Assembly (NCBI GenBank): GCA_021787435.1 | Contig: JAJYLY010000006.1 | Coordinates: forward strand, 62,001-126,000 | From: Pseudomonadota bacterium | Lineage (GTDB): Bacteria > Pseudomonadota > Gammaproteobacteria > Burkholderiales > Gallionellaceae | Reading direction: 5' to 3' | DNA: 64,000 nucleotides | Shown: positions 48,394 to 62,072 of the stretch, in pieces | How positions within the stretch are numbered: the stretch's first letter is position 1 | Layout: every line of letters starts with the position of its first letter | Notes under the pieces: generated by a model | The model's input: only the letters and a program-made list of their open reading frames with translations | Told to the model about the DNA's origin: nothing | Database searches by the model: none | Program-made: the position numbers and the translations under genes

Positions 48394-48951
48394 TCACAGA
48401 AAAAACGGTATAAATAGTTTTGTGCGAGCCATATATTGTCGGTACTGGGAACCAAAATAATCGAGGTTCTCGTTTTCCTCGGCGCGCGAGGTGAATAGCA
48501 GAAACACGCAGGCAACAAGCGCGATGCAGCCGTTAAGCCAGGAAATCTCCTTGAAGAGCAGCCCGAAGTCCAGAAAGATCAGCGAGCTGTAAATGGGATG
48601 GCGTATGTAACGGTAAAGGCCGCAGGTCACCAGCGACGTGGTTTTTTCGATGAGCAGCAGCGGCGCATCGTTGCGGTTTGCGTTGTGCTGTCCAAACAGA
48701 AACAAGGACAGATAGCCAAGAACAACCAGGATGAGCGAAATATTCATCAGCACTTCGCTGACAATCTGCTCCGGCGTATGCACGGCGCCGTCCCATCTGC
48801 CTAAGCTTGACACGATCAGAATCAGGATCAGTTCCCAAGCGAAGAACCGGTAGAAACCATGCGATTTTGGCACGCGTAAGGAAGCGCGCGAAAAGTAAGC
48901 CAGTACCGCTGTGCCTGCGATGAAGGTGAGCCATTTAAGCATGGATAGCAT
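48394..48951 (-). CDS. isoprenylcysteine carboxyl methyltransferase-like membrane protein
   Basis: A protein of about 185 residues with four to five membrane helices of the ICMT/phospholipid methyltransferase fold. CGLYRYIRHPIYSSLIFLDF carries the conserved R-H-P SAM-binding motif, and RAEENENLDYFGSQYRQYMA is the C-terminal Glu-rich motif. The substrate is unknown; bacterial members methylate small acids or lipids. The start is uncertain: ATG at 48951 or 48942 both fit, and the frame is open to 49017. It lies beside the aryl-polyene cluster but points away from it, so a functional link is only possible. Confidence 0.75.
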   Translation of the reverse strand: MLSMLKWLTFIAGTAVLAYFSRASLRVPKSHGFYRFFAWELILILIVSSLGRWDGAVHTPEQIVSEVLMNISLILVVLGYLSLFLFGQHNANRNDAPLLLIEKTTSLVTCGLYRYIRHPIYSSLIFLDFGLLFKEISWLNGCIALVACVFLLFTSRAEENENLDYFGSQYRQYMARTKLFIPFFL

Positions 48952-49017
48952 TCCAGAAACATACCGTGTATAAAGTTTACACGCGTTTTCAGAAGTTGGG
49001 GAATCAGGCAGAGCCAA

Positions 49018-49138
49018 TTATTGATAGGGCACCTGAATTGCAGGCAACACATAAGCAAGTGGAATTCAGACCTCGACCTGTCGATAGGCTGTCTGTTGGC
49101 AGGTCGATTAAGTTACAATCCGGATAAATATATATCTG
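49018..49138. promoter_or_regulatory. divergent promoter region with inverted repeat
   Basis: The gap between the methyltransferase-like gene and the chorismatase gene holds a perfect 8-bp inverted repeat, TCGACCTG (49073–49080) and CAGGTCGA (49100–49107), followed by TTACAAT (49113–49119), a good -10 box for the plus strand. No clear -35 box was found. The repeat would overlap the -35 zone, as for a regulator-binding site. Confidence 0.4.
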
Positions 49139-50236
49139 TTGTCACCTCATGAATATTTTGCAGTACCCCGGAAACGGGCTCGACTTTCCACCATGCGGGC
49201 GTGTGGCCACCGGTGCGGTGCTCTGATGCGCGATCCGGTATTGCATGGCGAATATCAGTCTGTCGCCGACATGCAAGAACAGCCCGACAGCGTGCTGGGC
49301 GCGATCTGCTTTTCATCCACGCCGCTGATGGTTGATCAGGCGCTTTGCCTGCATGTTCCGATGCAGAGGCTGGATCAGCCTGATGAGGCTGTCTGTGAAG
49401 TTTGGCGCTGCAGCGGGCAAGTCGCAGCGGGGCAATACGGCGACATCCGTTACCGTCAAGGCGATGGGGTATTATTTGGCGTCATTGCATTGCCAGAGCA
49501 TCGATTTGACGCGGGCAGGCCTTTGTTGCAGCAGGCCGCCGAGTCAGCCTATCGCCAAGTGTTCGAGCTGCTCAACAGACTCGAATATCATTATCTCTTC
49601 AGGTTCTGGAATTATATCGCAGACATCAATGCCGAGAGTTTCGGCATGGAACGTTATCAGCAGTTCAACATCGGCAGGCAGGATGCTTTCCTGGCTCACG
49701 GTCGGGACGTGCTTGGCAATGCCCCGGCAGCCTGTGCTCTGGGCATGAGAGAGGGACCGCTTGCCATCGCATTTATCGCCGGAACCGCACCGCCCTTGAA
49801 CATAGAAAATCCGCGCCAAATCAGCGCCTGCCGGTACCCGCAGCAATATGGGCCGCGCAGCCCGACATTCTCGCGCGCAAGTCTCGTGCGCATCGGTAAG
49901 GGGACGGTGTTGTTCATTTCCGGCACGGCCAGCATCGTAGGCCACGCAACCCTGCATCACGATGATGCCGTGATGCAGACGCGGGAAGCCATGGCAAACA
50001 TCAAGGCTGTGCTGGACGAGGCGAACCGTCAGTCCCCTGATTCATTCGACCTTGCAGGATTAGCTTACAGGGTATATATCCGGCATCCTGCCGATCTTGC
50101 GCCTGTGCGCGCAGAGCTCGTCAGAATCGTGGGCGAGCAGTGCACTGCGGTTTATCTGCAGGCTGACATATGCCGCACCGACCTGTTGCTGGAAATCGAG
50201 GCGGTGCATGCAACGAAATCCTTCGGGATGGAGTGA
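49139..50236 (+). CDS. chorismatase (XanB2/FkbO/Hyg5-like hydroxybenzoate synthase)
   Basis: An enzyme of up to 365 residues that splits chorismate. FRFWNYIADINAESFGMERY, QQFNIGRQDAFLAHGRDVLG and LFISGTASIVGHATLHHDDA match the FkbO/XanB2 family, whose XanB2 members yield pyruvate plus 3- and 4-hydroxybenzoate. In Xanthomonas this gives the aromatic head of xanthomonadin and feeds ubiquinone synthesis. Here it leads an aryl-polyene-like cluster. The start is uncertain: the frame opens with TTG at 49139, while ATG 49193 would give 347 residues, closer to family length. The PlsC-like gene follows two bases after the stop. Confidence 0.85.
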   Translation: MSPHEYFAVPRKRARLSTMRACGHRCGALMRDPVLHGEYQSVADMQEQPDSVLGAICFSSTPLMVDQALCLHVPMQRLDQPDEAVCEVWRCSGQVAAGQYGDIRYRQGDGVLFGVIALPEHRFDAGRPLLQQAAESAYRQVFELLNRLEYHYLFRFWNYIADINAESFGMERYQQFNIGRQDAFLAHGRDVLGNAPAACALGMREGPLAIAFIAGTAPPLNIENPRQISACRYPQQYGPRSPTFSRASLVRIGKGTVLFISGTASIVGHATLHHDDAVMQTREAMANIKAVLDEANRQSPDSFDLAGLAYRVYIRHPADLAPVRAELVRIVGEQCTAVYLQADICRTDLLLEIEAVHATKSFGME

Positions 50237-50238
50237 TC

Positions 50239-51012
50239 ATGCGCCTGATTATCAAGTTCTACGATTATTTGGTGCTGTATCTGGGCCTCATCTGGCTGGG
50301 TGCGCTGTGTCTTGCATGGACCCCAGTTGCGATGATCGCTTATCTTTTCCTGCCTGAACGCTGGGGGAGGGCGATCGGACGCTATGCGATCATGGTTGGA
50401 TTCCGATTGTATCTGGCAAGCATCAGCATTTCGCGCCGCTGCAGCTTTGATCTCTCGGCACTTGATGCGCTGCGCAACGAAGAGTCGCTGATTATCGCAC
50501 CCAATCATCCCTGTTTGCTGGATGCGGTGATGGTGATTTCCCGTCTGCCCAATGTGGCCTGCGTGCTTAAGACAGACCTGATGAACAATGTGTTTCTCGG
50601 TGCGGGTGCGAGGCTTGCGCGCTACATCTGCAATAATCCGGGGCATCGCATGGTGAAGAAGGCAACCGACGATTTCAAGTCCGGCAGCCATCTTCTGCTT
50701 TTTCCGGAAGGCACGCGCACGACCTCGTTCCCGGTCAATCCGCTCAAAGGGAGCATAGGGCTGATTGCGCATCACGCGAAGGTGCCCGTGCAGACATTGC
50801 TTATCGAAACGGATTCCGCCTATCTCACCAAGGGATGGCCCTTGTTTCGCAAGCCTGTGATGCCTATTCATTACCGCGTGAGTCTGGGCAAGCGCTTCGA
50901 TCCGCCGAAAAATACCCGGCAGTTCATGGCAGAGCTAGAACGCTATTTTTCTCAGGACCTGATTCGGGATGCAAAGATTTGTGCGCCCGATAAACAGGCA
51001 TCATCATGTTGA
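50239..51012 (+). CDS. PlsC-like 1-acylglycerol-phosphate acyltransferase family protein
   Basis: A 257-residue membrane-associated acyltransferase. The H(x)4D motif is in IAPNHPCLLDAVMVI and the substrate motif is LLFPEGTRTTSF; two hydrophobic segments occupy residues 5–45 (VLYLGLIWLGALCLAWTPVA). ATG 50239 is chosen by the family start and lies two bases after the chorismatase stop. In aryl-polyene clusters such acyltransferases are thought to place the polyene acyl chain on a lipid or sugar acceptor. A role in ordinary phospholipid synthesis is less likely in this setting. Overlaps the next gene by seven bases. Confidence 0.87.
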   Translation: MRLIIKFYDYLVLYLGLIWLGALCLAWTPVAMIAYLFLPERWGRAIGRYAIMVGFRLYLASISISRRCSFDLSALDALRNEESLIIAPNHPCLLDAVMVISRLPNVACVLKTDLMNNVFLGAGARLARYICNNPGHRMVKKATDDFKSGSHLLLFPEGTRTTSFPVNPLKGSIGLIAHHAKVPVQTLLIETDSAYLTKGWPLFRKPVMPIHYRVSLGKRFDPPKNTRQFMAELERYFSQDLIRDAKICAPDKQASSC

Positions 51013-51779
51013 ACGCATCGAGCTCACATCTTGTTCTCATCCCAAGCTATAACCCGGGGGAGAAGGTCTTTGAAACCGTGCGAGCTGCGCGCCAGCACTG
51101 GACACCTGTCTGGGTGGTGGTGGACGGCAGCACGGATGGCACCGCAGAGAGGCTCATTGAAATGGCAAAACTGGACCAGGGCTTGCGCGTGATGGTGCTG
51201 CCTGAAAACCAAGGCAAGGGCGCTGCGGTGCTGCATGGGGTAGAACTTGCGGCAGCCCAGGGATACAGCCATGTGCTGACCATGGATTCGGACGGCCAGC
51301 ATCCGGCCGATCGCATTGCCGGATTCATGGCTGCCTCGATCGAGCAGCCCGATGCGATGATACTGGGCCTGCCGGTGTTCGACGAACATGCGCCTTCGCT
51401 CAGGGTCAGGGGGCGACGCATATCCAACTGGTGGGCTAACCTCGAGACACTCTGGTCTGGCATAGGCGATTCACTGTTCGGGTTTCGCGTCTATCCAGTC
51501 GAGCCCTTGCGGCGCGTGATGAAAAGACAGCCATGGATGCGCCACTTCGATTTCGATCCGGAGGCAGTGGTACGTCTTTGCTGGTTGGGAATCAGGCCCG
51601 TCAATCTGGAAGCACCGGTGCGCTACTTCAGAAAGGACGAAGGGGGCGTGTCGCACTTTCGCTACCTGCGCGACAATATGCTCCTGACCTGGATGCATGC
51701 GCGGCTGTTCGCGGGCTTTCTGCTGCGCCTGCCTGTGCTCCTTGCAAGGAAGTCAGCTAGATCTCGCTGTGCTCCGTGA
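51006..51779 (+). CDS. family 2 glycosyltransferase (dolichol-phosphate-mannose-synthase-like)
   Basis: A 257-residue GT-A enzyme. LVLIPSYNPGEKVFETVRAA, VWVVVDGSTDGTAERLIEMA, NQGKGAAVLHGVELA and VLTMDSDGQHPADRI (the DXD-like motif) are typical of the DPM1/GtrB-like subgroup, without the C-terminal membrane helices of GtrB. It would move a sugar to a lipid or polyene acceptor. It overlaps the PlsC-like gene by seven bases at its start and, at its end, the convergent dehydratase gene by 23 bases. Glycosyltransferases of this type occur in xanthomonadin and aryl-polyene clusters. Confidence 0.87.
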   Translation: MLNASSSHLVLIPSYNPGEKVFETVRAARQHWTPVWVVVDGSTDGTAERLIEMAKLDQGLRVMVLPENQGKGAAVLHGVELAAAQGYSHVLTMDSDGQHPADRIAGFMAASIEQPDAMILGLPVFDEHAPSLRVRGRRISNWWANLETLWSGIGDSLFGFRVYPVEPLRRVMKRQPWMRHFDFDPEAVVRLCWLGIRPVNLEAPVRYFRKDEGGVSHFRYLRDNMLLTWMHARLFAGFLLRLPVLLARKSARSRCAP

Positions 51780-52209
51780 TCGCGTCGAGCATCACGGCAG
51801 CGCGCCCTTCCAGCAGCAGGTGGTCTTCTGAACTGACCTCGAACCGATAGAGTATGTTGTTTTCGCTACATGTGATAGCAATGGCTTTCACGATCAGATC
51901 GGCCGCGATGTCGTCCAAACGCAGCGCATAAAGCCTTGCGCCGCGCACGCTCACGAGATAGCCTGCGCGGGAAGGCTGGCCTGAGGCGCGCAGCGCGCCA
52001 TGCACGGCCATCGCCTGCGCAGCATATTCGATGCCGCAGGCGCTGCCTAATCTGCCGAAGGCGCGCAAAGGGTTGTCGGGGCTGCGGTGGCTGTGCGCGC
52101 GGCACTGTATCTGTTGTGCATCCCAGGAGTCGACGTGATCGAGCAGACACATCCCGCCCCGGTGTGGGATATGCGCGGCGATCCAGTCATGGTTGAGCAG
52201 GTTCAGCAT
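51757..52209 (-). CDS. 3-hydroxyacyl-ACP dehydratase, ApeP/COG4706-like
   Basis: A 150-residue hotdog-fold protein. AAHIPHRGGMCLLDHVDSWD carries the H-R-x-x-M-x-L-(I/L)-D block of the FabZ-like aryl-polyene dehydratases, and GSACGIEYAAQAMAVHGALR supplies the second active-site stretch. It would dehydrate the 3-hydroxyacyl intermediate to build conjugated double bonds. Overlaps the chain-length factor gene by seven bases. It is the last gene of the long minus-strand cluster operon, and a second dehydratase domain is fused to the adenylating enzyme at 59477. Confidence 0.88.
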   Translation of the reverse strand: MLNLLNHDWIAAHIPHRGGMCLLDHVDSWDAQQIQCRAHSHRSPDNPLRAFGRLGSACGIEYAAQAMAVHGALRASGQPSRAGYLVSVRGARLYALRLDDIAADLIVKAIAITCSENNILYRFEVSSEDHLLLEGRAAVMLDAITEHSEI

Positions 52210-52994
52210 GGTGAAATTACAACGGTAAGCGTCTTGTGATCCAGATAGTCGAGCACCACGCGGCCGTTTTTCCGCATCGCGATGGCGCTAAGCATAGGCA
52301 GGCTGCGCGCGGCAGGGATGGCAACGCGCAGCTTTTCGAGTTCGCCATCGAGCCTGTCTGCCACGTCATCGCTCAATGCAACGCTGATTTCAGCCAGTGC
52401 TCTGGGCGTTTTCATCGGGGATAGTACTAGCGCGATGCCAAATGCATCCGGAATGGGCCGTGCCGAGAAGAGCGGTTCGGGATAGGGCGTGTCACAGGCG
52501 AGCAGCACGGTGCGCGTGTGATCCACGATAACCTGGGCGAACGCTTCCAGCAATCCTGCGCCGAAACTGGCATCGAAGGCGCACAGTACCGATGAACTTG
52601 CCATCGCGCCAGTTGCAATGCTCCAGTACCCTGCGGCCGTGTTGTGCACCGAGTTGTGAAAGCGCGTAGGTGATATCTGGCGGTCGTTGGATGCCAGCAT
52701 CTCGCAGATCGCGTGGCAGTTTTCTCCATCGCCGCCTGAGGAAGAAAACACGGCTGGCAGATTAGCGGCATCGAGTCCTGCAGCTTGAATGGCTTCGAGT
52801 CCGACTGCGAGCGCGAGCTTGACCGGCGCGCCGCTGCGCCTGCGTTCTGCTGCAGGAAGCAATGCGGGCGCAGGCAGCAGAGTTTTCTGCGGGCTATAGG
52901 GAGTCTGTCCCTTGAGTATGGACTGGCTGTCAGGCCAGTTCGCAAGGCCCGGGCCTAAGAGTCCTATGCCTTCGATGTATGCGGCAAGCTTCAT
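52203..52994 (-). CDS. beta-ketoacyl synthase chain-length factor-like protein
   Basis: A 263-residue protein matching the N-terminal domain of ketosynthases (beta-ketoacyl synthase-like, COG-style chain-length factor). IGLLGPGLANWPDSQSILKG, AVFSSSGGDGENCHAICEML and ISPTRFHNSVHNTAAGYWSI are the family landmarks. The nucleophilic Cys of true ketosynthases is absent, and the length is only two thirds of FabF. In aryl-polyene clusters such a protein pairs with the active ketosynthase, as in KS–CLF dimers, and sets chain length. It overlaps the ketosynthase gene by four bases, consistent with a one-to-one complex. Confidence 0.88.
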   Translation of the reverse strand: MKLAAYIEGIGLLGPGLANWPDSQSILKGQTPYSPQKTLLPAPALLPAAERRRSGAPVKLALAVGLEAIQAAGLDAANLPAVFSSSGGDGENCHAICEMLASNDRQISPTRFHNSVHNTAAGYWSIATGAMASSSVLCAFDASFGAGLLEAFAQVIVDHTRTVLLACDTPYPEPLFSARPIPDAFGIALVLSPMKTPRALAEISVALSDDVADRLDGELEKLRVAIPAARSLPMLSAIAMRKNGRVVLDYLDHKTLTVVISPC

Positions 52995-54178
52995 GCGATC
53001 CGTCCGAGGATCAGGGTGCAGTTGGTGCCGCCAAAGCCGAACGAGTTGCTAAGCACGCGCTGAATTTTCTGTTCGCGGCTTTGCAGCAAGTAATCGAGAT
53101 TCAACGCCGGATCGATTTGCTTAGTGTTGATTCCTCCTGGCATGAAGCCATGCTGCAGAGAAAGCGCCGAAATCACAGCCTCGATGCCGCCAGCCGCCCC
53201 TAGCGTGTGGCCGGTAGCACCCTTGATCGAGCTGCAGGGTGTGTCCTGACCGAATAGTGCATGAACGGCAAGGCCTTCGGCCGCATCATTGCTGGGTGTT
53301 GCGGTGCCATGCAGGTTGATGTAGTCGATGTCAGAAGGTGCCAGACCCGCCATCGTCAGCGCATCCTGCATCGCGATCTTTGCGCCCAGGCCTTCCGGGT
53401 GAGGCGAAGACATGTGATAGGCGTCGCTGGATTCCCCTATGCCAAGCAGCATGATGCCATCGCAACTTTGCGGAGCTTTTTCCAGCAGCGCAAACGCCGC
53501 CGCTTCCCCGATAGACAGGCCGTTGCGCTCTGCGTCATAAGGACGGCAGGGTTGCTCTGACAGCAGGCCCAGCGAGCTGAAGCCATAAAGGGTGGTAAGA
53601 CACAAGGAATCAACGCCGCCCACCAGCGCCGCATCGATGAGCCCCGCTTCCATCATGCGCCGTGCCGAGCTGAATACCTTCGCACTTGAGGAACATGCGG
53701 ACGAGACCGCAACGGCAGGGCCTGAGAGATCAAAATAGCGGTGAACAAAATCCACGACGGAATATGTGTTGTGCGTTGTGCGATAGACGAAACCGGCAGG
53801 CAGTGTTCCTGTTTCGGGGTCGCGATACCGATAGGCAAGTTCGGTTTGAAAAATGCCTGAAGTGCTGGTGCCCAGAAACACGCCGATGCGCTGCCTGCCG
53901 TATTTTTTGATCGCGGCGCGCACGGATTCGTCAAAGCCGTCCTGCATTAGACCCAGCCATGCAAGCCGATTGTTGCGGCAATCGTATTCCGAAAACTGAG
54001 TGGGAAGGTTTACATAATCGAGCCCTGCCACTTCGCCGACAAAGGTTTTCAGGTCAACCGTGTCGAAGGTGCAGGGTGAGAGGCCAGAGCGTTGCTCCTT
54101 GAGTGCGGAAAGCGTCTGGTCAAGCCCGCGCCCGATGCTGCTGGTCGCGGTGAAATGGGAAAGCCAAAGCGGATTCAA
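52991..54178 (-). CDS. beta-ketoacyl-ACP synthase (FabF-like) of the aryl-polyene type
   Basis: A 395-residue condensing enzyme. Cys162 in AVSSACSSSAKVF is the nucleophile, with His290 in INLHGTATPSNDAAEG and His324 in GATGHTLGAAGG completing the Cys-His-His site. It extends an acyl chain by two carbons from malonyl-ACP. The start is a TTG at 54178 with no good ribosome binding site; the family N-terminus (PLWLSHFTATSSIGRGLDQT) begins there and no better in-frame start exists, so expression may be modest. It is separated from the PAP2 gene by 69 bases, the only real gap in this operon, so a second promoter is possible. Confidence 0.92.
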   Translation of the reverse strand: MNPLWLSHFTATSSIGRGLDQTLSALKEQRSGLSPCTFDTVDLKTFVGEVAGLDYVNLPTQFSEYDCRNNRLAWLGLMQDGFDESVRAAIKKYGRQRIGVFLGTSTSGIFQTELAYRYRDPETGTLPAGFVYRTTHNTYSVVDFVHRYFDLSGPAVAVSSACSSSAKVFSSARRMMEAGLIDAALVGGVDSLCLTTLYGFSSLGLLSEQPCRPYDAERNGLSIGEAAAFALLEKAPQSCDGIMLLGIGESSDAYHMSSPHPEGLGAKIAMQDALTMAGLAPSDIDYINLHGTATPSNDAAEGLAVHALFGQDTPCSSIKGATGHTLGAAGGIEAVISALSLQHGFMPGGINTKQIDPALNLDYLLQSREQKIQRVLSNSFGFGGTNCTLILGRIA

Positions 54179-54247
54179 AACAAAACCAACGTCAGGTTAT
54201 TCAGACAGATAACATTAACACAAATATTCACGATAAGGGGCGGGTCA

Positions 54248-54901
54248 TCATTTTTCCGCTGACTGCTTAAAGGACAGCCATGCTGACAGCATGCCTAGCG
54301 CGAGGCCTGCCAGTACATCGACCGCGACATGCTGGCGCGTGGCAAGCGTCGAATAGACGATCGCTATGCACCATACCCAGTTCAGGGTCAGCAGCCACAA
54401 AGGCGAGCCAAAACCGCGCAACAGGCGATGCAGCCAGAAGCCGGAAAAAACTGCGGTGACGACATGCAGCGAAGGGCAGGCGTTGCCCGATGCATCCATG
54501 TTTTTCAGGAAGTCGACGTCAGGATACTGCGACCAGTCTATGCCGGATGCAGGCACCGAGGTCGGCCAGAAGTAGAAGATGAGCAATGCGGCAATGCAGG
54601 TGGCGGCGATGCTTGCACCATAGGCATAAAGCTCCCGTTTTGTTGACAGCAGTGCAGGAGGCAAAGACACATATAGCCACAGAGAAACATAGACGAACAC
54701 AGCCTGCGGCGCAAAACCCACCAGATGGTCAAGCCAGATGGTGGGCATCACTGTCGAAGGGTGTATGGGATTTTTCAGAAGATAAAAGTAGGCTGAGAAA
54801 AACAGAGCAATGAAAAGCGTGGTTCCGAAAGCCTTAAGTATGGCCTGCCTGAATATCACTGCTGCAATCTGGCGATGCCAGTCCAACGTAACGGAAGTCA
54901 T
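54248..54901 (-). CDS. PAP2-family membrane phosphatase
   Basis: A 217-residue protein with five to six membrane helices. ACPSLHVVTAVFSGFW supplies the S-x-x-x-H-like C2 motif and STLATRQHVAVDVLAG the C3 motif of the PAP2 superfamily; the C1 motif K(x)6RP is not well preserved, as in the inositolphosphotransferase-like group. It could dephosphorylate a polyprenyl or lipid phosphate or move a phosphate-linked group at the periplasmic side. It overlaps the deacetylase gene by four bases, which places it firmly in the polyene cluster. Confidence 0.85.
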   Translation of the reverse strand: MTSVTLDWHRQIAAVIFRQAILKAFGTTLFIALFFSAYFYLLKNPIHPSTVMPTIWLDHLVGFAPQAVFVYVSLWLYVSLPPALLSTKRELYAYGASIAATCIAALLIFYFWPTSVPASGIDWSQYPDVDFLKNMDASGNACPSLHVVTAVFSGFWLHRLLRGFGSPLWLLTLNWVWCIAIVYSTLATRQHVAVDVLAGLALGMLSAWLSFKQSAEK

Positions 54902-55695
54902 GACAATGCGGACCGCAATGTGACAAAGCGCAGCCCAGCATGGTGCGCGGCCGAAAGTATGACCGGAAGTGCTTCGAGTATCACGGGGGTGCCATCCTTT
55001 GTGCGCGCCGCATTGCCGTCGTGCAGCAGCAGGATTGCGCCTGCCTTGAGCCCTTTGATCAGCTTTCTTGCGACGCGCTCAGCATCGTTCACGCGGGTGT
55101 CATAGGCGCGCACTGACCAGCTGGCAAGCTGCAGATTAAGTTTTGCAAGCGCAGGATCCAGAAAGGGGTTGCGCAGGCCTGCAGGCGCGCGAAAAAACAA
55201 TGGACGTTGGCCGGTGATTCCGGTGAGCGTTGCCTGAGCCGCTGTGAGTTCTCTGATGTAGCCAGAATAGCCCAGCAGAGAAAAATGATGACGGTGATGC
55301 TGGCTGTGGTTTTCTACCGCATGGCCGCGGGAAACGATTTCGCGGCACAATTCGGGATGGCGCAAAGCTTTTTCTCCTATGCAGAAAAAGGTTGCTTTTA
55401 CATTATGTCGGTCAAGGATATCCAGCACTTTCGGGGTCACGGCAGGATCCGGGCCGTCGTCTATGGTCAGCGCGATCTCGTTGCGGCATGCTTCGGGCAG
55501 TCTTGTCCAGTTCGGTCCCAGCCAGTCGCATCGCGGCAGGAGTCCTGTCAGCGTGAGCAGGGCATGATTGATAAGAAAGGCCGACAACGCGATTCGCCAT
55601 TGCATCGGCTGGACGATGAGAAGAATCGCGATCGTGACATGCAATAGCAGACTTGCGCGTATCAGAAGGGTGGGTTTCCAGCGCGCATCAGGCAT
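54898..55695 (-). CDS. polysaccharide deacetylase (NodB fold), membrane-anchored
   Basis: A 265-residue protein with an N-terminal hydrophobic pair (LIRASLLLHVTIAILLIVQP and ALSAFLINHALLTLTGLLP) and a NodB domain: EIALTIDDGPDPAVTPKVLD (catalytic Asp pair), HAVENHSQHHRHHFSLLGYS (metal-binding His) and FFRAPAGLRNPFLDPALAKL. It should remove an N-acetyl group from a sugar at the outer face of the inner membrane. ATG 55695 is chosen for its AGGAGG four bases upstream. It overlaps the MMPL exporter gene by eight bases and the PAP2 gene by four, so it belongs to the cluster. Confidence 0.88.
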   Translation of the reverse strand: MPDARWKPTLLIRASLLLHVTIAILLIVQPMQWRIALSAFLINHALLTLTGLLPRCDWLGPNWTRLPEACRNEIALTIDDGPDPAVTPKVLDILDRHNVKATFFCIGEKALRHPELCREIVSRGHAVENHSQHHRHHFSLLGYSGYIRELTAAQATLTGITGQRPLFFRAPAGLRNPFLDPALAKLNLQLASWSVRAYDTRVNDAERVARKLIKGLKAGAILLLHDGNAARTKDGTPVILEALPVILSAAHHAGLRFVTLRSALS

Positions 55696-58000
55696 GGGTC
55701 CTCCTGGCAAAAATGGCTGAATAGATAAGCGCAAGGACGACGCCGGGGGCTACCGTCACACCCATCGCCTGCAATATGGATACATGGGAAAATGCGAGCA
55801 GGCCAAAGCCTGCGACAGCCGTCAGATTGGCAAAAAGCATAGAGACCAGCGTTTTTGGCGAACAGTCGGAAGCGTTTGATTCGTTCCTGTCAAAGAACAG
55901 CGCGTAGTTGGAACCCACTGCGACCACAAGCAGCAGGCCCACCAGATGCATGATGATCAGCTGTTGACCGAACAAAATTAATCCTGCCGTGACGGTGGTG
56001 ACCGCGGCAGCGAGCGGCAGCACGATGTAGAACACGCGGACTGGCGAGCGCAAAGCAAGCAGCAAAAGCAGGATAATCAGCGCAGTCCCGCCCAGTGACA
56101 ACAGGATGGCTTCATGCAGATAGCCCGAATAAAGATGATCCGATTCGGCCTTCATGTCCACGAACAGCACGCCTTTCATGCCGGATAGTGCTGCGCGGAT
56201 GGCTGCTGCATCGATGTCTTTGCCGTCGACAGCGGTAAGCGGCAGCAGCGCGCTTGAACGATCAGCCCGATGGATGAGCAATGCATCGACTGCCATGGAC
56301 ATCGAGGTGTGATCCAGATCGGATCGCTGCAGGAGCGGCTGGAGCCTGGCGGCTTCAACATCGGATAAAAAAGGTGCAAAGCGTTCAGCCTTGACAGGCA
56401 ATCCCTGGGCTGCCAGAGACAGGCGGGATGCCAGGATGTCCGGGGCAGGCAGGCTGTTTTTGCGCATGCGCTGCGTTTTAAGGCTGGGCAGATAACGGCT
56501 CGGACTCTCAAAGCCTGAGAGTTCTCCGCGTTCGACTTGTAATTGCAGTATGGCAGATGCGCGTTCGGCAGACTGTAATACGGATTCTTGATCCTTGCCT
56601 GAGACGACCACCATGTAACGCACATCGGGTGCGCTGATGTCAGCACGGAGTTCCGCGTCGAGTGCGACATCTGATTGCGATACCGGACTCAACGAGGATA
56701 TCTTTTCATTCCACAGGTCGTTGCGGTGCATGAACAGGATGATGCAGGCTAGAAGCAGTAGCATGAAGGCTGGCCATCTCAATCTTGTTGCGAGCATTGT
56801 CAGGCGGGAGAGCATCCGGCCGATGACTGAAACATCGTGGATATGGAAATATTTAGGCATCAGATGAGGCAACACGAAACGGGTCATCAGCGCTGCCGTG
56901 ACGAGGCCCGAAATCGCATACAGGCCGAGTTGTGCGAGCCCCGGAAATCCGGACAGCATCAGCGCTGCAAAACCGGCTATCGAGGTCAGCACGCCCAGGC
57001 GGACGGTAGGCCAGAAGCGTCTGATCCAGTCTTGCTTGTCCTGTTCGGATTGCACGAACAGGTAAATGGAGTAATCCACTGCCTCGCCTATCAGCGCTGT
57101 GCCGAAACCTAGCGTAATGCCGTGCACGGTGCCGAAAACAAGGCCGACAAAGGCAACGCCCGCAAGCGCGCCACTAATGATGGGTAAAAAGCTCAGTACC
57201 AGTGCGGTGAAGGAACGATAAACCAGCAACAGCAGCGCTGCGATCAGCGCGATACTGATGACGGACAGACGGGTCACTTCGCTCTTTATCGTTTCGCGTG
57301 AGTTGACCGAGAACACGCCGGGGCCCGTCATCATGAGTCTCATGTCAGAAGCATGCGCCTCGTCGAATACCTGACGTACCGCAGCCATGGCGTGTTGCTG
57401 TGCATCGGTGTCCGAACCAGATGCGCGCGTTTGCAAAAGCATCAGTGCGCGCTTGCCGTCTTTCGATGCCCATGCGCCGTAGAGCATCCTCGGGCTGTTT
57501 TCCATCTGGCCCAGCAATTGCGCCATTTCACCCGTTGCATCGTGAGGCAGCAACGATTTGAAAAGCAGCCCTGCCGGAGAGGCGATGAGGTCTATGCTCT
57601 CGCTTAACGCATCGTGCAGACCTGCGACTTCAAAACGGGCGGGCGTGACTTTGGGGCTTAACAGATAACGATGGTTAAACAGGTAAGCGCGGTCGCGCTC
57701 GCCATTGATATCTTCGCCATTGTCTACGGTTGCAAAGCGCGGATCGGCGCGCAGCTTTTTGGCGATCTGTCTGGAAAGTGCGGCGCGCTTTTCTGCGTTG
57801 TTTCCCTCTATGCCTACCAGGATCAGGCGCGAAGCGAGGCCGTCCTTGATCTGTTCGAGCAGGAGTTGTTGCGCAGCGGTCGGATTGCGCGGCAGGAATG
57901 CGGAGAGGTCTGCGGTGAACCGGCTCTGGGTAATCGCGATGATGCAAGCCGCGATGAATGCCAGCCACAGGAATATTGCGCCCTTCTGGTTTGGCTTCAC
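55688..58000 (-). CDS. MMPL/RND-type exporter
   Basis: A 770-residue inner-membrane transporter. One helix at the N-terminus (AIFLWLAFIAACIIAITQS), a large periplasmic domain, five helices (about 245–415), a second periplasmic domain, and a final set of helices give the standard two-fold RND layout. GTALIGEAVDYSIYLFVQSE and LLVVAVGSNYALFFDRNESN are the paired proton-relay regions; the Asp/Tyr pair is clear in the first. Such exporters appear in xanthomonadin and aryl-polyene clusters and are thought to move the lipid product across the inner membrane. It begins with GTG, overlapping the LolA-like gene by four bases (GTGA). Confidence 0.92.
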   Translation of the reverse strand: MKPNQKGAIFLWLAFIAACIIAITQSRFTADLSAFLPRNPTAAQQLLLEQIKDGLASRLILVGIEGNNAEKRAALSRQIAKKLRADPRFATVDNGEDINGERDRAYLFNHRYLLSPKVTPARFEVAGLHDALSESIDLIASPAGLLFKSLLPHDATGEMAQLLGQMENSPRMLYGAWASKDGKRALMLLQTRASGSDTDAQQHAMAAVRQVFDEAHASDMRLMMTGPGVFSVNSRETIKSEVTRLSVISIALIAALLLLVYRSFTALVLSFLPIISGALAGVAFVGLVFGTVHGITLGFGTALIGEAVDYSIYLFVQSEQDKQDWIRRFWPTVRLGVLTSIAGFAALMLSGFPGLAQLGLYAISGLVTAALMTRFVLPHLMPKYFHIHDVSVIGRMLSRLTMLATRLRWPAFMLLLLACIILFMHRNDLWNEKISSLSPVSQSDVALDAELRADISAPDVRYMVVVSGKDQESVLQSAERASAILQLQVERGELSGFESPSRYLPSLKTQRMRKNSLPAPDILASRLSLAAQGLPVKAERFAPFLSDVEAARLQPLLQRSDLDHTSMSMAVDALLIHRADRSSALLPLTAVDGKDIDAAAIRAALSGMKGVLFVDMKAESDHLYSGYLHEAILLSLGGTALIILLLLLALRSPVRVFYIVLPLAAAVTTVTAGLILFGQQLIIMHLVGLLLVVAVGSNYALFFDRNESNASDCSPKTLVSMLFANLTAVAGFGLLAFSHVSILQAMGVTVAPGVVLALIYSAIFARRTHA

Positions 58001-58575
58001 GGCGTAGCCAGTCTTTCGATGGACATGAACGAGCTGTCGCCATCAGCCTGGATGATTTCGATGCTGCGCAAGGCATTCTGCTCGCCTGCAATACGGATTT
58101 GTTTGGCTACCTTTTGCATCTTCGGGTCTATGGGCAACAGTTGCAGCGTCCAATGTTCCGCCGTGCCTGAAAGATTGATCCGGTAGTTTCGTTCAAGTGC
58201 TGCGCGATCCCCTGATAGCGTGCTGCGTATGCTGTCGATGAAAGCGGCAATTTCCGGATAGCTTTGCAATTGCAGGCGATGTGTCTGGTGATTGCGTTCT
58301 ATGATCAGGGTGTCGCCATCCACTGTCAGCGATTCCGGTTTGGGTTTCAGCGTGCGCTTTTCCAGATGGTCAGGCGCAGTGTAGTAAAGCTCGCCGGATG
58401 ATTCCACGGGTTTGTCCAGCATCGCGATGGATTTCTTTTCAACAAAGCCTGCATGGTTGCTGCGGATTTTCGCAAGATTCTGCATGAGCTGGTCGAGATT
58501 CCACTCCGAGGCAAGCGCCATGACAGGTGCCAGCAGCAGCACGGCGAGAGACAGACGACATACAGTCTTGCTCAT
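57997..58575 (-). CDS. LolA-like outer-membrane lipoprotein carrier
   Basis: A 192-residue periplasmic protein. A signal peptide (KTVCRLSLAVLLLAPVMALA) precedes SEWNLDQLMQNLAKIRSNHA, and SGELYYTAPDHLEKRT and LDKPVESSGELYY match the LolA-fold family found in aryl-polyene clusters. It would carry a lipidic intermediate, probably the polyene product, from the MMPL exporter to the outer membrane. It overlaps both neighbours by four bases and is encoded directly before the exporter, which supports joint function. Confidence 0.9.
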   Translation of the reverse strand: MSKTVCRLSLAVLLLAPVMALASEWNLDQLMQNLAKIRSNHAGFVEKKSIAMLDKPVESSGELYYTAPDHLEKRTLKPKPESLTVDGDTLIIERNHQTHRLQLQSYPEIAAFIDSIRSTLSGDRAALERNYRINLSGTAEHWTLQLLPIDPKMQKVAKQIRIAGEQNALRSIEIIQADGDSSFMSIERLATP

Positions 58576-59480
58576 TCGCTCTCAGGGTGCCAGAAGTCGA
58601 AAAAATTGAACCAGTTGTATGGCGCCTTGCGGCAGTACTGGTCCAGCAACCCGGCGTAGCGGTTGACAGCATCCTGTATGGCCTGGTCCCGCCCGTCTGG
58701 CATCGCAACAGAGAAATCCGCCAGATGATCGAAATGAATAGCGTAACGGTTGCCGCCCAGATACAAACCGGTCATGAAGACTACGGGGCGCTTCAGAAGT
58801 GCAGCCATGCGGAACGGCCCTGTGGGCAGGTGCGCTGTCTCATTCAGGATTTTCACAGGACGACAGGCTTCGTTGCCCGGCGTGCGGTCAGCCAGCATGC
58901 CGACTGCATAGCCTTTGTTAAGCTTCGCCTCGACCTTGAGCATCGCATCGAGGTTGCCAAGGCCGATGATCTCCTGATTCGATTGCGGGTTGATCGCGGA
59001 AAGCACTGCGTTGATCTTTTGCGCATTGGCTTCGTGCATCAGCATTACGACGCGCAAGCCGGCGTTTTTTTTCCCGATCGCGCTGATCGCCTCGAAGCTG
59101 CCCAGATGAGCGCCTATCAGAAACAGTCCATTGTCCTTTTCTAGCAGGTGCTCGCCATGGATTTCAAAATCGAACAGATCGTAGCGTCGGTTGATCAGAT
59201 AGATGCGGTCGTGGATGGTGGAGGCAAAGGAAAAAAAATGCCGGTAAAGATCGCGCCAGCGAACTGGACGTTCCTGCGCGCGTTCGAGATATGCACGGGA
59301 TGCGCGACGGCTCTTGGGTGAAAACAGCAGAAAGTATGCAGTGATCGGGTACAGCGCGCAACGCGTAGCCTTCCTGCCGAATTTCAGGGAGCACCAGGTC
59401 ATGATACGCAGCATGGACAGGCTGCCGCGTTCCGGCTCTGCAGCCCAGCTGGCTTTCTCTAGGGTTGAATGGACTGTCAT
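58572..59480 (-). CDS. LpxL/HtrB-like acyltransferase
   Basis: A 302-residue membrane-associated acyltransferase of the lysophospholipid acyltransferase superfamily. GLFLIGAHLGSFEAISAIGK carries the H(x)4E-type motif, NKGYAVGMLADRTPGNEACR and LPTGPFRMAALLKRPVVFMT the acceptor region. Homologues are found in aryl-polyene clusters, where they are proposed to transfer the polyene acyl chain from ACP to a glycerol or sugar acceptor. It overlaps the LolA-like gene and the adenylating-enzyme gene by four bases each. Confidence 0.88.
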   Translation of the reverse strand: MTVHSTLEKASWAAEPERGSLSMLRIMTWCSLKFGRKATRCALYPITAYFLLFSPKSRRASRAYLERAQERPVRWRDLYRHFFSFASTIHDRIYLINRRYDLFDFEIHGEHLLEKDNGLFLIGAHLGSFEAISAIGKKNAGLRVVMLMHEANAQKINAVLSAINPQSNQEIIGLGNLDAMLKVEAKLNKGYAVGMLADRTPGNEACRPVKILNETAHLPTGPFRMAALLKRPVVFMTGLYLGGNRYAIHFDHLADFSVAMPDGRDQAIQDAVNRYAGLLDQYCRKAPYNWFNFFDFWHPESE

Positions 59481-61078
59481 GGAATTGGTGCGATGTTGCC
59501 GCTGGCAATTTTTCTTGAACCTGATGTGATGTCAAAGCGCATCGTACCATTGGGAAGGGTTGTCTGCTGGAAAAGCAGCCGGTCTCCTGGTCTGGCCGGG
59601 CTCGTGAACTTGACCGAGCTGATTTCATAGCGATCTGGGGTCATGCCATGCATTTGTGCAATGCGGTGCAACGCTTCATCCAGCAGCACCACACCCGGCA
59701 GTATCGGGTGACCCGGGAAATGTCCCGCAAAGGTGGGGTGGTCGAGTGGCACTGTCCAGACAGGGTGGTGAGCCTGAAAGAGCGCTTTTAGCGTTGAGTG
59801 GGGCAGTTTTCCCGTGCTGTTGCGCGGCAGTGCGTCGACAAACAGCAAAGGGCGTGGCAGAAAAACTGGGTCCAGATGTTCGCGCAGTGCGGCAAGCAGG
59901 GTCTCGGCATTTATTCCTGGTGCTACCACGGCTGCCGCAAGCCGCGTGACATCGGCTGTCTCGTCGGGCATGTAGAACGCACCATCCAGGATGCAGGGCA
60001 ATGAATTGAGCAGGTGGTTAAGTCCCGCCAGGGAATGACGCTTGCCGGCAATGTTGATCATGTCGGCCATGCGACCATGCAATAAAAACAAATCGTCGGC
60101 AACCGGCTCTATCATGTCATTCATCAGCACTGGGGGAACTATATGCAAGCCTGCTGCGCGCACACTGTCTTTTTCAATGAGCCACCTGATGCCGGGAAAA
60201 AGCTGCCACGCCGGCCCCTGGGTCGGCCTGCGGCTTGCGATCTGGCCTGTTTCGGTAGAGCCATAGATTTCTGTCAGCGGGCAGCTGCAACGCGCCTCGA
60301 TGTCGTGGGCGAGCTGTTCAGACAGCGGTGCAGTGGCGGACATGACATGCGCAAGTTCGGGTATCGCAAGCTCCGCGTTTAGCAGGGTGCGCAAATGCAG
60401 CGGCGAGGAGATCAGCACGCGGGGGGAGGGTACGCTGGATAGCGCATCGCAAATGTCAGCAGGAAAAAATGGCTGTGTATGGCTCAGTGCAAAGCCATTG
60501 CACCAGGCCATCAGCACGGTTGACTCGAAGCCGTACATGTGTTGCGGCGGGACCGTGCCGATGATGGTGGCATTGTCAAGGGCCCCCAGTCGCCCGGCTT
60601 CGAATTGCACGCTGTCAACCAGTCCAGCCCAAGTCTTTGGATGAGGCTTGGGAATGCCGGTTGAGCCAGAGGTGAACACGATGGCGATCTGCTGGCTGCA
60701 GTCGATTTGCGGTATTGCGATTTCTTCGGGCGGGCTGACGGCCATGGCCGGGTAGTTGAACCGCGGCAGGTCCACTGCACATTGTTCGCTGTCGGCCAAG
60801 CAAAATACGTCAGGCGCAAATTGCTTGATCTGTCGAATGACTTCGGGCGTCTGCGTCGGGGGCAACAAGCTGATCTTGTTCTTCAGTATCGCGGCTGCCA
60901 ATCCTACGCTGAAGCGGTAGCGATCGTTGCACAGATTGAGCAGATGCTGGCCGTCGGGCAGCTGTGAGGCAAGCTGATGCACTTCTGAAAGAAATTGCTG
61001 TCTAGTGACGGCGCCATCGGCGCGATAAGCGACGATGCTGTCGGCTCTGGGATGGGATAATAGAGGTAGTGCGGTCAT
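59477..61078 (-). CDS. aryl/acyl-adenylating enzyme fused to a FabA/FabZ-like dehydratase
   Basis: A 533-residue two-domain protein. Residues 1 to about 435 are an AMP-binding enzyme: IAIVFTSGSTGIPKPHPKTW (phosphate loop), LTEIYGSTETGQIASRR, LLHGRMADMINIAGKRHSLA and LPRNSTGKLPHSTLK (catalytic Lys). From about 447 a hotdog dehydratase follows, with FAGHFPGHPILPGVVLLDEA holding the active-site His. It would activate the hydroxybenzoate starter (or an acyl unit) and also dehydrate a 3-hydroxyacyl-ACP. In the E. coli aryl-polyene cluster the ligase (ApeH) and dehydratase (ApeI) are adjacent genes. Overlaps flanking genes by four bases. Confidence 0.9.
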   Translation of the reverse strand: MTALPLLSHPRADSIVAYRADGAVTRQQFLSEVHQLASQLPDGQHLLNLCNDRYRFSVGLAAAILKNKISLLPPTQTPEVIRQIKQFAPDVFCLADSEQCAVDLPRFNYPAMAVSPPEEIAIPQIDCSQQIAIVFTSGSTGIPKPHPKTWAGLVDSVQFEAGRLGALDNATIIGTVPPQHMYGFESTVLMAWCNGFALSHTQPFFPADICDALSSVPSPRVLISSPLHLRTLLNAELAIPELAHVMSATAPLSEQLAHDIEARCSCPLTEIYGSTETGQIASRRPTQGPAWQLFPGIRWLIEKDSVRAAGLHIVPPVLMNDMIEPVADDLFLLHGRMADMINIAGKRHSLAGLNHLLNSLPCILDGAFYMPDETADVTRLAAAVVAPGINAETLLAALREHLDPVFLPRPLLFVDALPRNSTGKLPHSTLKALFQAHHPVWTVPLDHPTFAGHFPGHPILPGVVLLDEALHRIAQMHGMTPDRYEISSVKFTSPARPGDRLLFQQTTLPNGTMRFDITSGSRKIASGNIAPIP

Positions 61079-61704
61079 GGCTTGGCCTTCCTGAACGAGC
61101 GCAGCGCATCGAGTATGTGCACATCACCCGCTTCGGGCAATGTGCATCTGCGCAACAGGTACTCGGCAATGAACATCAGGGTGATCAGGGGCAGCGTCAT
61201 GAAGTTGGCAAAAACTGACCAGATGGCAAGTGGCGCAAAAAAGAAAAGCAGCGTGGAAGTCAGCGCCATCGCGGCGAAGAACAGCGTCCAGGCGATGGTC
61301 ACATTGCGCGCATAGGTTTCATGCTGTCTGGTCAATGGCGCATGAGTCGCTTCTGCAAAGCGCACGCAGAGCGGTTTTTGTCCGCTGGCCAGGGTTCGGC
61401 CAAAAGTGATCAGCAAACCGAGCTGCATGCCTGTGTCTTGCAGCCAGTATATCAGTCCGAAATGCTGTTCTATCGCATGCCATTGGCTGTATGCCGCAAG
61501 GCTCGTGAGGGCCAGCGCAGCCAGCATGAAGTAGCGGCTGGAGGAATTCCAGGCCAGAAGCAGTGCGAAAAATGCCACCGGTGCGATCGCTGTCAGTGCG
61601 CCAAGGCTGCCGTTTTTTGCCGTGGTGTTGGTGTAATGCGCAAGCAGCGCATAGCCGACTATCGCGACTGCAATGCCCGCTGGGCGCACGATGCGGTTAG
61701 CCAT
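61075..61704 (-). CDS. COG4648-type polytopic membrane protein
   Basis: A 209-residue inner-membrane protein with about five hydrophobic segments (for example AVIVGYALLAHY-like start, FFALLLAWNSSSRYFMLAAL, VTIAWTLFFAAMALTSTLLF). It belongs to the small membrane protein family carried by most aryl-polyene clusters next to the acyl carrier protein. Its function there is unknown. ATG 61704 shares one base with the ACP stop (TGATG); TTG 61707 is less likely. It overlaps the adenylating-enzyme gene by four bases. Confidence 0.85.
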   Translation of the reverse strand: MANRIVRPAGIAVAIVGYALLAHYTNTTAKNGSLGALTAIAPVAFFALLLAWNSSSRYFMLAALALTSLAAYSQWHAIEQHFGLIYWLQDTGMQLGLLITFGRTLASGQKPLCVRFAEATHAPLTRQHETYARNVTIAWTLFFAAMALTSTLLFFFAPLAIWSVFANFMTLPLITLMFIAEYLLRRCTLPEAGDVHILDALRSFRKAKP

Positions 61705-61982
61705 CAAAGCGTTCTGTGCGCTGCGATATAGGTGGTAAGGCTGCGCAGCGAGCCGAAAATTTGTTTGTTGTCCGCACCATCGCTGCGCAACTGCAAGCCA
61801 TAACGCTTGGAGATTGCCAGCGAGATTTCAAGTATGTCGATCGAATCCAGCCCCAAGCCGTCGCCATACAGGGGGGTGTCGGGGGAGATTTGCTCTGCGG
61901 CAACTTCAAGATTGAGACATTCGACCATCAGTTGGGCGACTTCGTTTTGCAGCGTGCTCTCGGATTTTTGATTATCTTGCAT
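61704..61982 (-). CDS. acyl carrier protein
   Basis: A 92-residue ACP. GDGLGLDSIDILEISLAIS contains the phosphopantetheine-accepting Ser47 in the LDSIDI motif (DSL variant). ATG 61982 gives a family-length protein; the frame is open to 62072 but that stretch overlaps the promoter. It is the first gene of the minus-strand polyene operon and should carry the aryl and polyene acyl intermediates for the ketosynthase, dehydratases and acyltransferases. Aryl-polyene clusters usually have two such ACPs; only one is found here. Confidence 0.93.
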   Translation of the reverse strand: MQDNQKSESTLQNEVAQLMVECLNLEVAAEQISPDTPLYGDGLGLDSIDILEISLAISKRYGLQLRSDGADNKQIFGSLRSLTTYIAAHRTL

Positions 61983-62043
61983 GATACATAAATGGAATTT
62001 CAAAAAACAACCGGCCTGTGGACTGAATACATGCCTGCCGTGA

Positions 62044-62072
62044 ATACTACGCAACACTAAGGAATATTGCAA
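62044..62072 (-). promoter_or_regulatory. promoter candidate of the aryl-polyene operon
   Basis: On the minus strand TTGCAA (62072–62067), 17 bases, TAGTAT (62049–62044), about 62 bases ahead of the acyl carrier protein start. Each box departs from consensus at one or two positions; the spacing is ideal. Confidence 0.45.

Follow-up and report, generated by a model that had tools for sequence, protein, structure and literature searches.

As far as the excerpts of the cited reports go, several pigment systems resemble the locus described here. In Azoarcus sp. BH72, the chorismatase ArcB makes 3-hydroxybenzoate (3-HBA), and an analogue of 3-HBA entered the arcuflavin head group whereas one of 4-hydroxybenzoate (4-HBA) did not (PMC3949708). 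The arc genes are split over two loci, and Azoarcus also has the arcA halogenase, the arcM methyltransferase, the arcH reductase, arcC and dialkylresorcinol genes (PMC3949708). Clusters of this type were described in 2014 from Sideroxydans, Dechloromonas and Variovorax. In Xanthomonas, the xan/pig cluster likewise contains a chorismatase, XanB2, which gives the 3-HBA starter and additionally supplies 4-HBA for ubiquinone (PMC3949708, PMC5069965, PMC9499169); its ability to stand in for UbiC is already known (PMC5069965, PMC9499169). When the homologue was deleted in Lysobacter, about 90% of the pigment was lost, and it came back with 3-HBA (PMC3691225). In Ralstonia, xanB2 is absent from the xan-like cluster (PMC9542644). 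The aryl-polyene (APE) cluster of E. coli shares the type II PKS-like assembly and LolA/RND export, but its predicted starter is UbiC-derived 4-HBA, and the excerpts describing it mention no chorismatase (PMC8253772).

The window (the whole 64-kb stretch of DNA that was analysed) carries a real and intact chorismatase gene in the open reading frame 49139-50236 on the plus strand. The product matched the Pfam family FkbO_Hyg5-like_N (PF21168, 5e-38) over the whole profile in its N-terminal half, and the C-terminal half resembled RidA/YjgF (PF01042, 4e-05, under the cut-off). NCBIfam TIGR04444 gave an E-value of 2e-67 with 227 bits, which is below the curated cut-off of 325. The solved chorismatases of Streptomyces, Hyg5 (5ag3/5a3k) and FkbO (4bps), matched with E-values from 1e-43 to 3e-42 and about 31-33% identity in the fold alignment, and these family matches are far beyond chance. 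The AlphaFold model, made with seven homologues (mean pLDDT 80.5), matched 5a3k, 5ag3 and 4bps best in a PDB fold search (TM 0.76-0.84), with the next family far behind. These results bear out the preliminary description, which had read the gene as a XanB2/FkbO-family member heading the plus-strand arm, and both motifs that it quoted, RFWNYIADIN and GMERYQQF, are present in the protein. Its reading frame also stands, but its TTG start at 49139 adds 29 extra codons. Because the same-genus homologues all begin with MRD/MRV where the window has ATG 49226, translation most likely begins at this ATG (MRDPVLHGE...), and the first 29 codons of the frame are therefore probably untranslated. A simple sigma-70-like promoter scan of 48900-49350 found no candidate.

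The gene lies in an arc/xan-type aryl-polyene cluster spanning 49226-62072, in which a plus arm of chorismatase, acyltransferase and glycosyltransferase genes converges on a minus arm running from 62072 down to 51757 (Table 1). The arc/xan-type gene set was found in one neighbourhood: a chorismatase, a ketosynthase (KS) with a chain-length-factor (CLF)-like partner, an AMP ligase, an acyl carrier protein (ACP), acyltransferases, a glycosyltransferase, LolA and MMPL proteins. The cluster is an ordinary case of a known kind. It shares with Azoarcus, also a betaproteobacterial host, the chorismatase, acyltransferase, glycosyltransferase, KS, CLF-like protein, AMP ligase, ACP, LolA, exporter and deacetylase, as given in the excerpts on the arc genes (PMC3949708). 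Unlike arc, it forms one locus, lacks a reductase and a UbiE-like methyltransferase, and has an ICMT-like neighbour and a ligase fused to a hotdog domain. This domain is at the C-terminus of the ligase (59477-61078), and the excerpts list the arcT ligase and arcS dehydratase of Azoarcus as separate genes (PMC3949708). The best NCBIfam match of the fused protein was 4-coumarate-CoA ligase, under its cut-off. The true start of the ACP is probably downstream of TTG 62072.

Table 1. Genes of the aryl-polyene locus, with positions in the window.
Feature	Position	Strand	Evidence or remark
ICMT-like integral-membrane methyltransferase, divergent from chorismatase	48394..49017	-	PF04140 6e-07
Chorismatase (FkbO/Hyg5/XanB2 family), 336 aa	49226..50236	+	Pfam, NCBIfam, PDB sequences, AlphaFold fold; Gly233, Cys316, Glu323
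1-acylglycerol-phosphate-type acyltransferase (ArcD-like)	50239..51012	+	PF01553 1e-13; ATG 2 nt past chorismatase stop
Family 2 glycosyltransferase (ArcE-like)	51006..51779	+	PF00535 1e-18
Probable dehydratase, ArcI position	51757..52209	-	No Pfam match; position and conserved homologues
Ketosynthase N-terminal-like, chain-length-factor-like protein (ArcJ-like)	52203..52994	-	PF13723 2e-26
Beta-ketoacyl-ACP synthase (ArcK-like)	52991..54178	-	PRK09185 559 bits, cut-off 407
PAP2-family membrane phosphatase	54248..54901	-	PF01569 1e-12
Polysaccharide deacetylase (ArcN-like)	54898..55734	-	PF01522 3e-28
MMPL/RND-type exporter (ArcP-like)	55688..58000	-	PF03176 5e-20
LolA-like carrier (ArcQ-like)	57997..58575	-	PF19574 1e-27
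LpxL-type acyltransferase (ArcR-like)	58572..59480	-	PF03279 2e-07
AMP ligase (ArcT-like, aryl-activating) fused to FabA/ApeI-type hotdog dehydratase	59477..61078	-	PF00501 9e-18, PF07977 1e-05
Membrane protein, ArcU position	61075..61707	-	No Pfam match; homologues at same place
Acyl carrier protein (ArcV-like)	61704..62072	-	PF00550 4e-08

Alignment with the PDB sequences placed Gly233, Cys316 and Glu323 of the window protein at Hyg5 positions 240, 327 and 334. Glu323 is thus the catalytic glutamate, and Hyg5 Glu334 is described as the proton donor that initiates arene oxide formation (PMC7170507, in part). Hyg5 and FkbO are alike with the window protein in fold and catalytic Glu, and Hyg5 also in Gly240/Cys327; unlike the window enzyme, both are starter enzymes for type I PKS pathways in the parts of that report on them (PMC7170507). 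The preliminary description had named an FkbO-type active site as a finding that would speak against its reading; such an enzyme would make the 3,4-trans-dihydrodiol. The family and fold are the same, but FkbO (4bps) has Ala and Ala at positions 240 and 327, with Glu at 334, and both discriminating positions are Gly and Cys here, as in Hyg5; moreover, the pathway requires an aromatic starter. The CH-I (FkbO) subfamily was rejected on these residues, and a dihydrodiol product is extremely improbable. The marks given for CH-II, the 3-HBA-forming subfamily, are Nat-hyg5 164/231/318, equivalent to Hyg5 Gly173, Gly240 and Cys327 (PMC7170507, in part). Two of the three are present in the window protein (Gly240 and Cys327), and the Hyg5-173 position is Ala. 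The same Ala was found in 99 of 109 proteobacterial rows, so these sites cannot separate CH-II from CH-III (XanB2), which is defined by making both 3-HBA and 4-HBA.

In the window genome (2.73 Mb, 98.6% complete) there is a single chorismatase, and a single ubiC (7e-30) lies at another locus, directly between recG and ubiA. Since ubiC is intact, the chorismatase is not needed for ubiquinone. The preliminary description had also counted against its reading the case that ubiC is missing and the enzyme serves ubiquinone synthesis only. Loci of the family that stand apart from pigment genes all come from ubiC-less genomes (16/16, see below), and family members can therefore take a ubiquinone role; in this genome, however, such a role is contradicted by ubiC beside ubiA, and the next pigment gene is 2 nt from the chorismatase, which makes a ubiquinone-only enzyme hardly credible. 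A search for aromatic ammonia-lyase (PF00221) gave no match in the window genome and matched 5 of 14 control genomes, and an ammonia-lyase-derived starter was rejected. One sub-threshold halogenase match (19.8 vs 21 bits) was found on another contig.

The best account of a second chorismate-consuming enzyme, in the cluster of a genome already making 4-HBA, is that its product differs and is 3-HBA. We consider it likely that this chorismatase belongs to the arene-oxide (Hyg5/XanB2) kind and serves only the pigment by yielding 3-HBA, with UbiC serving ubiquinone. In the proposed route, Glu323 would protonate the enolpyruvyl group of chorismate, and pyruvate would leave via an intramolecular epoxide to give 3-HBA. 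Loading of 3-HBA onto the ACP of the cluster would fall to its AMP ligase, and chain extension with malonyl units into an aryl polyene to the KS/CLF pair. The acyltransferases, together with the LolA and MMPL proteins, would place the product in the outer membrane; the 4-HBA for ubiquinone would come from UbiC. The 3-hydroxyphenyl head group that the preliminary description had favoured is supported by the non-FkbO active site, the presence of ubiC, the lack of an ammonia-lyase match and the analogy with ArcB, through a product that we infer. The novelty that it implied for a xanthomonadin-like head group in a betaproteobacterium does not hold, such cases having been in print since 2014.

A XanB2-like bifunctional enzyme was also weighed, which would make 3-HBA for the pigment and, duplicating the role of UbiC, extra 4-HBA to be secreted or used in ubiquinone synthesis. 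According to the excerpts on ArcB, its overexpression in E. coli gave both acids, but in vitro 3-HBA exceeded the background and 4-HBA appeared also without enzyme (PMC3949708). Ala at Hyg5-173 also occurs in clades from ubiC-less genomes, and same-genus sister chorismatases occur in ubiC-less genomes, which would agree with a bifunctional product; within the genus, however, ubiC is kept in 7/7 genomes of the window's clade vs 2/7 of the other clade (Fisher 0.021). We regard the bifunctional enzyme as unlikely, though it is by far the more serious of the rivals, and the dedicated 3-HBA enzyme as the better reading.

The distribution of the two genes was compared across genomes. Of the 37 genomes of the window's genus, 14 have a chorismatase and 30 have ubiC. 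The order sample had chorismatase in 57 of 399 genomes and ubiC, with its status taken from a list of positives, in 244 of 399; 41 of the 57 chorismatase genomes had ubiC. Chorismatase was found in 67 of 369 genomes of the class sample, and with the window's own genome set aside, just 17 of 66 had ubiC; stretches were examined for 39 of these 66. Neighbourhoods were analysed for 109 chorismatase loci, 82 of which were flanked by 7 kb or more on each side and were counted, the 27 with short flanks being dropped. A locus was taken as in cluster when at least two of the 13 other window cluster genes were nearby, and as stand-alone when there were none, judged by the flanks rather than the whole genome. 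The results showed that 65 of the 82 loci were in cluster (43 with ubiC, 22 without), one had a single cluster gene and ubiC, and 16 were stand-alone, all from genomes missing ubiC. The difference between 16/16 and 22/65 ubiC-less is significant on raw counts uncorrected for kinship (Fisher 7e-7); a tree-controlled test of stand-alone context against missing ubiC had 4 supported pairs, too few for significance, with about 1.1 changing the same way and 0 the opposite way. The best 80 of 573 candidates in the chorismatase scan of genome contigs included no Xanthomonas, and the 11 records found among plasmids belonged to Streptomyces, Pseudonocardia, Caballeronia, Aureibacter and Parabacteroides.

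In a 111-row tree, the window gene fell within a 49-row clade (SH-aLRT 99) in which ubiC is kept in 40 of 49 genomes: 38 members are in cluster with ubiC, 9 in cluster without, 2 of unresolved context with ubiC, and none stand-alone. Four of the nine members without detectable ubiC are from family f50. The one ubiC match of this family (genome G208, C153:3361-3810) scores just 6e-8, so the ubiC-less calls for genomes G170, G240, G300, G357 and G384 may be false negatives. Within the window's genus, 5 of the 7 ubiC-less genomes carry chorismatase, and a relaxed ubiC search (E up to 10) of these five found no match; the other two (81% and 88% complete) have no ubiA match either and are therefore possibly just incomplete. 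Genomes G007 and G013 of this genus have about 0.8 kb between recG and ubiA without UbiC similarity, and in G061 and G255 of the same family the recG-ubiA gap is empty (about 210 and 106 nt). Several of the family's genomes with no ubiC between these two genes thus carry the chorismatase clade to which the window enzyme does not belong. The comparison across genomes suggests that UbiC has been replaced by sister enzymes but not by the window enzyme.

One subclade forms a graded series, with both cluster and ubiC in G019, the cluster without ubiC in G061, and neither ubiC nor a cluster gene in the stretch around the chorismatase in G255. The direction of this series is one that we infer; a pigment enzyme giving some 4-HBA likely made ubiC dispensable and then outlived the pigment. 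The G255 genome is a single contig of 2.7 Mb that has lost ubiC, and its chorismatase (L140) has no pigment gene within about 9 kb; it is possibly a relic of a lost pigment cluster. We see about even chances that pigment clusters are a recurrent source of UbiC replacement, such that in the window's family one clade would be pigment-only beside ubiC, and a second would have taken over the 4-HBA supply, with ubiC deleted between recG and ubiA and the G255 chorismatase persisting without pigment genes. If so, the window's clade would hold strict 3-HBA synthases and the sister clade 3-/4-HBA enzymes, a natural experiment on product choice. When enzymes of ubiC-less genomes were compared with those of ubiC-bearing ones, the residues that stood out were Asn vs Cys/Ser in column 148 and Ala vs Tyr in column 182. 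Among nine independent pairs on supported branches, joint changes averaged 1.0 for column 148 and 0.6 for column 182; both columns follow the tree and are therefore leads at most.

What the window alone adds is modest: a likely head group and a likely start codon for a yellow aryl-polyene pigment cluster in a relative of the iron-oxidising Gallionella, together with an enzyme shown to be spare for ubiquinone. The comparison is of more use, and what merits an experiment is how chorismatases divide within the family into those that serve only the pigment and those that serve ubiquinone. Close sister enzymes appear to differ in whether 4-HBA must be among their products, which gives a handle on the residues deciding 3-HBA vs 4-HBA. 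This choice is not accurately predictable from sequence alignment alone, as stated in the excerpts of PMC3949708. Full-text literature searches, judged by title and abstract start and with most subscription papers outside their scope, returned no survey of ubiC loss vs pigment chorismatases. A full-text search of the same scope found no aryl polyene with Gallionella, and for chorismatase with Gallionella it found only PMC3949708.

The clusters of relatives differ from that of the window in several genes. The ArcE-like glycosyltransferase is the most frequent chorismatase neighbour among them. Their clusters also hold a FabG-like ketoreductase and a UbiE-like methyltransferase, both missing from the window cluster and from the related stretches L031 and L032; the relatives' ketoreductase had no match anywhere in the window. 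Chain reduction must therefore use an enzyme encoded elsewhere, presumably the fatty-acid FabG. A search of 136 stretches detected the ICMT-like gene in 5, two of them from the same genome; the window shares it only with its nearest relatives (L017/L031 and L032) and with L167. Because the window and its nearest relatives lack the usual ketoreductase and UbiE-like methyltransferase, the ICMT-like methyltransferase may be a swapped-in tailoring enzyme. At 51757-51779 the glycosyltransferase gene and the dehydratase gene converging on it share their last 23 bases; the same junction in L021 and L040 holds several kb with the ketoreductase and methyltransferase genes, and in L040 also a Na/H exchanger. 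In clade II of the genus, an outer-membrane-like protein of about 266 aa is encoded between chorismatase and acyltransferase (L023, 10602-11399; L026, 8420-9358), at the arcC position, and is labelled MipA-like by this position.
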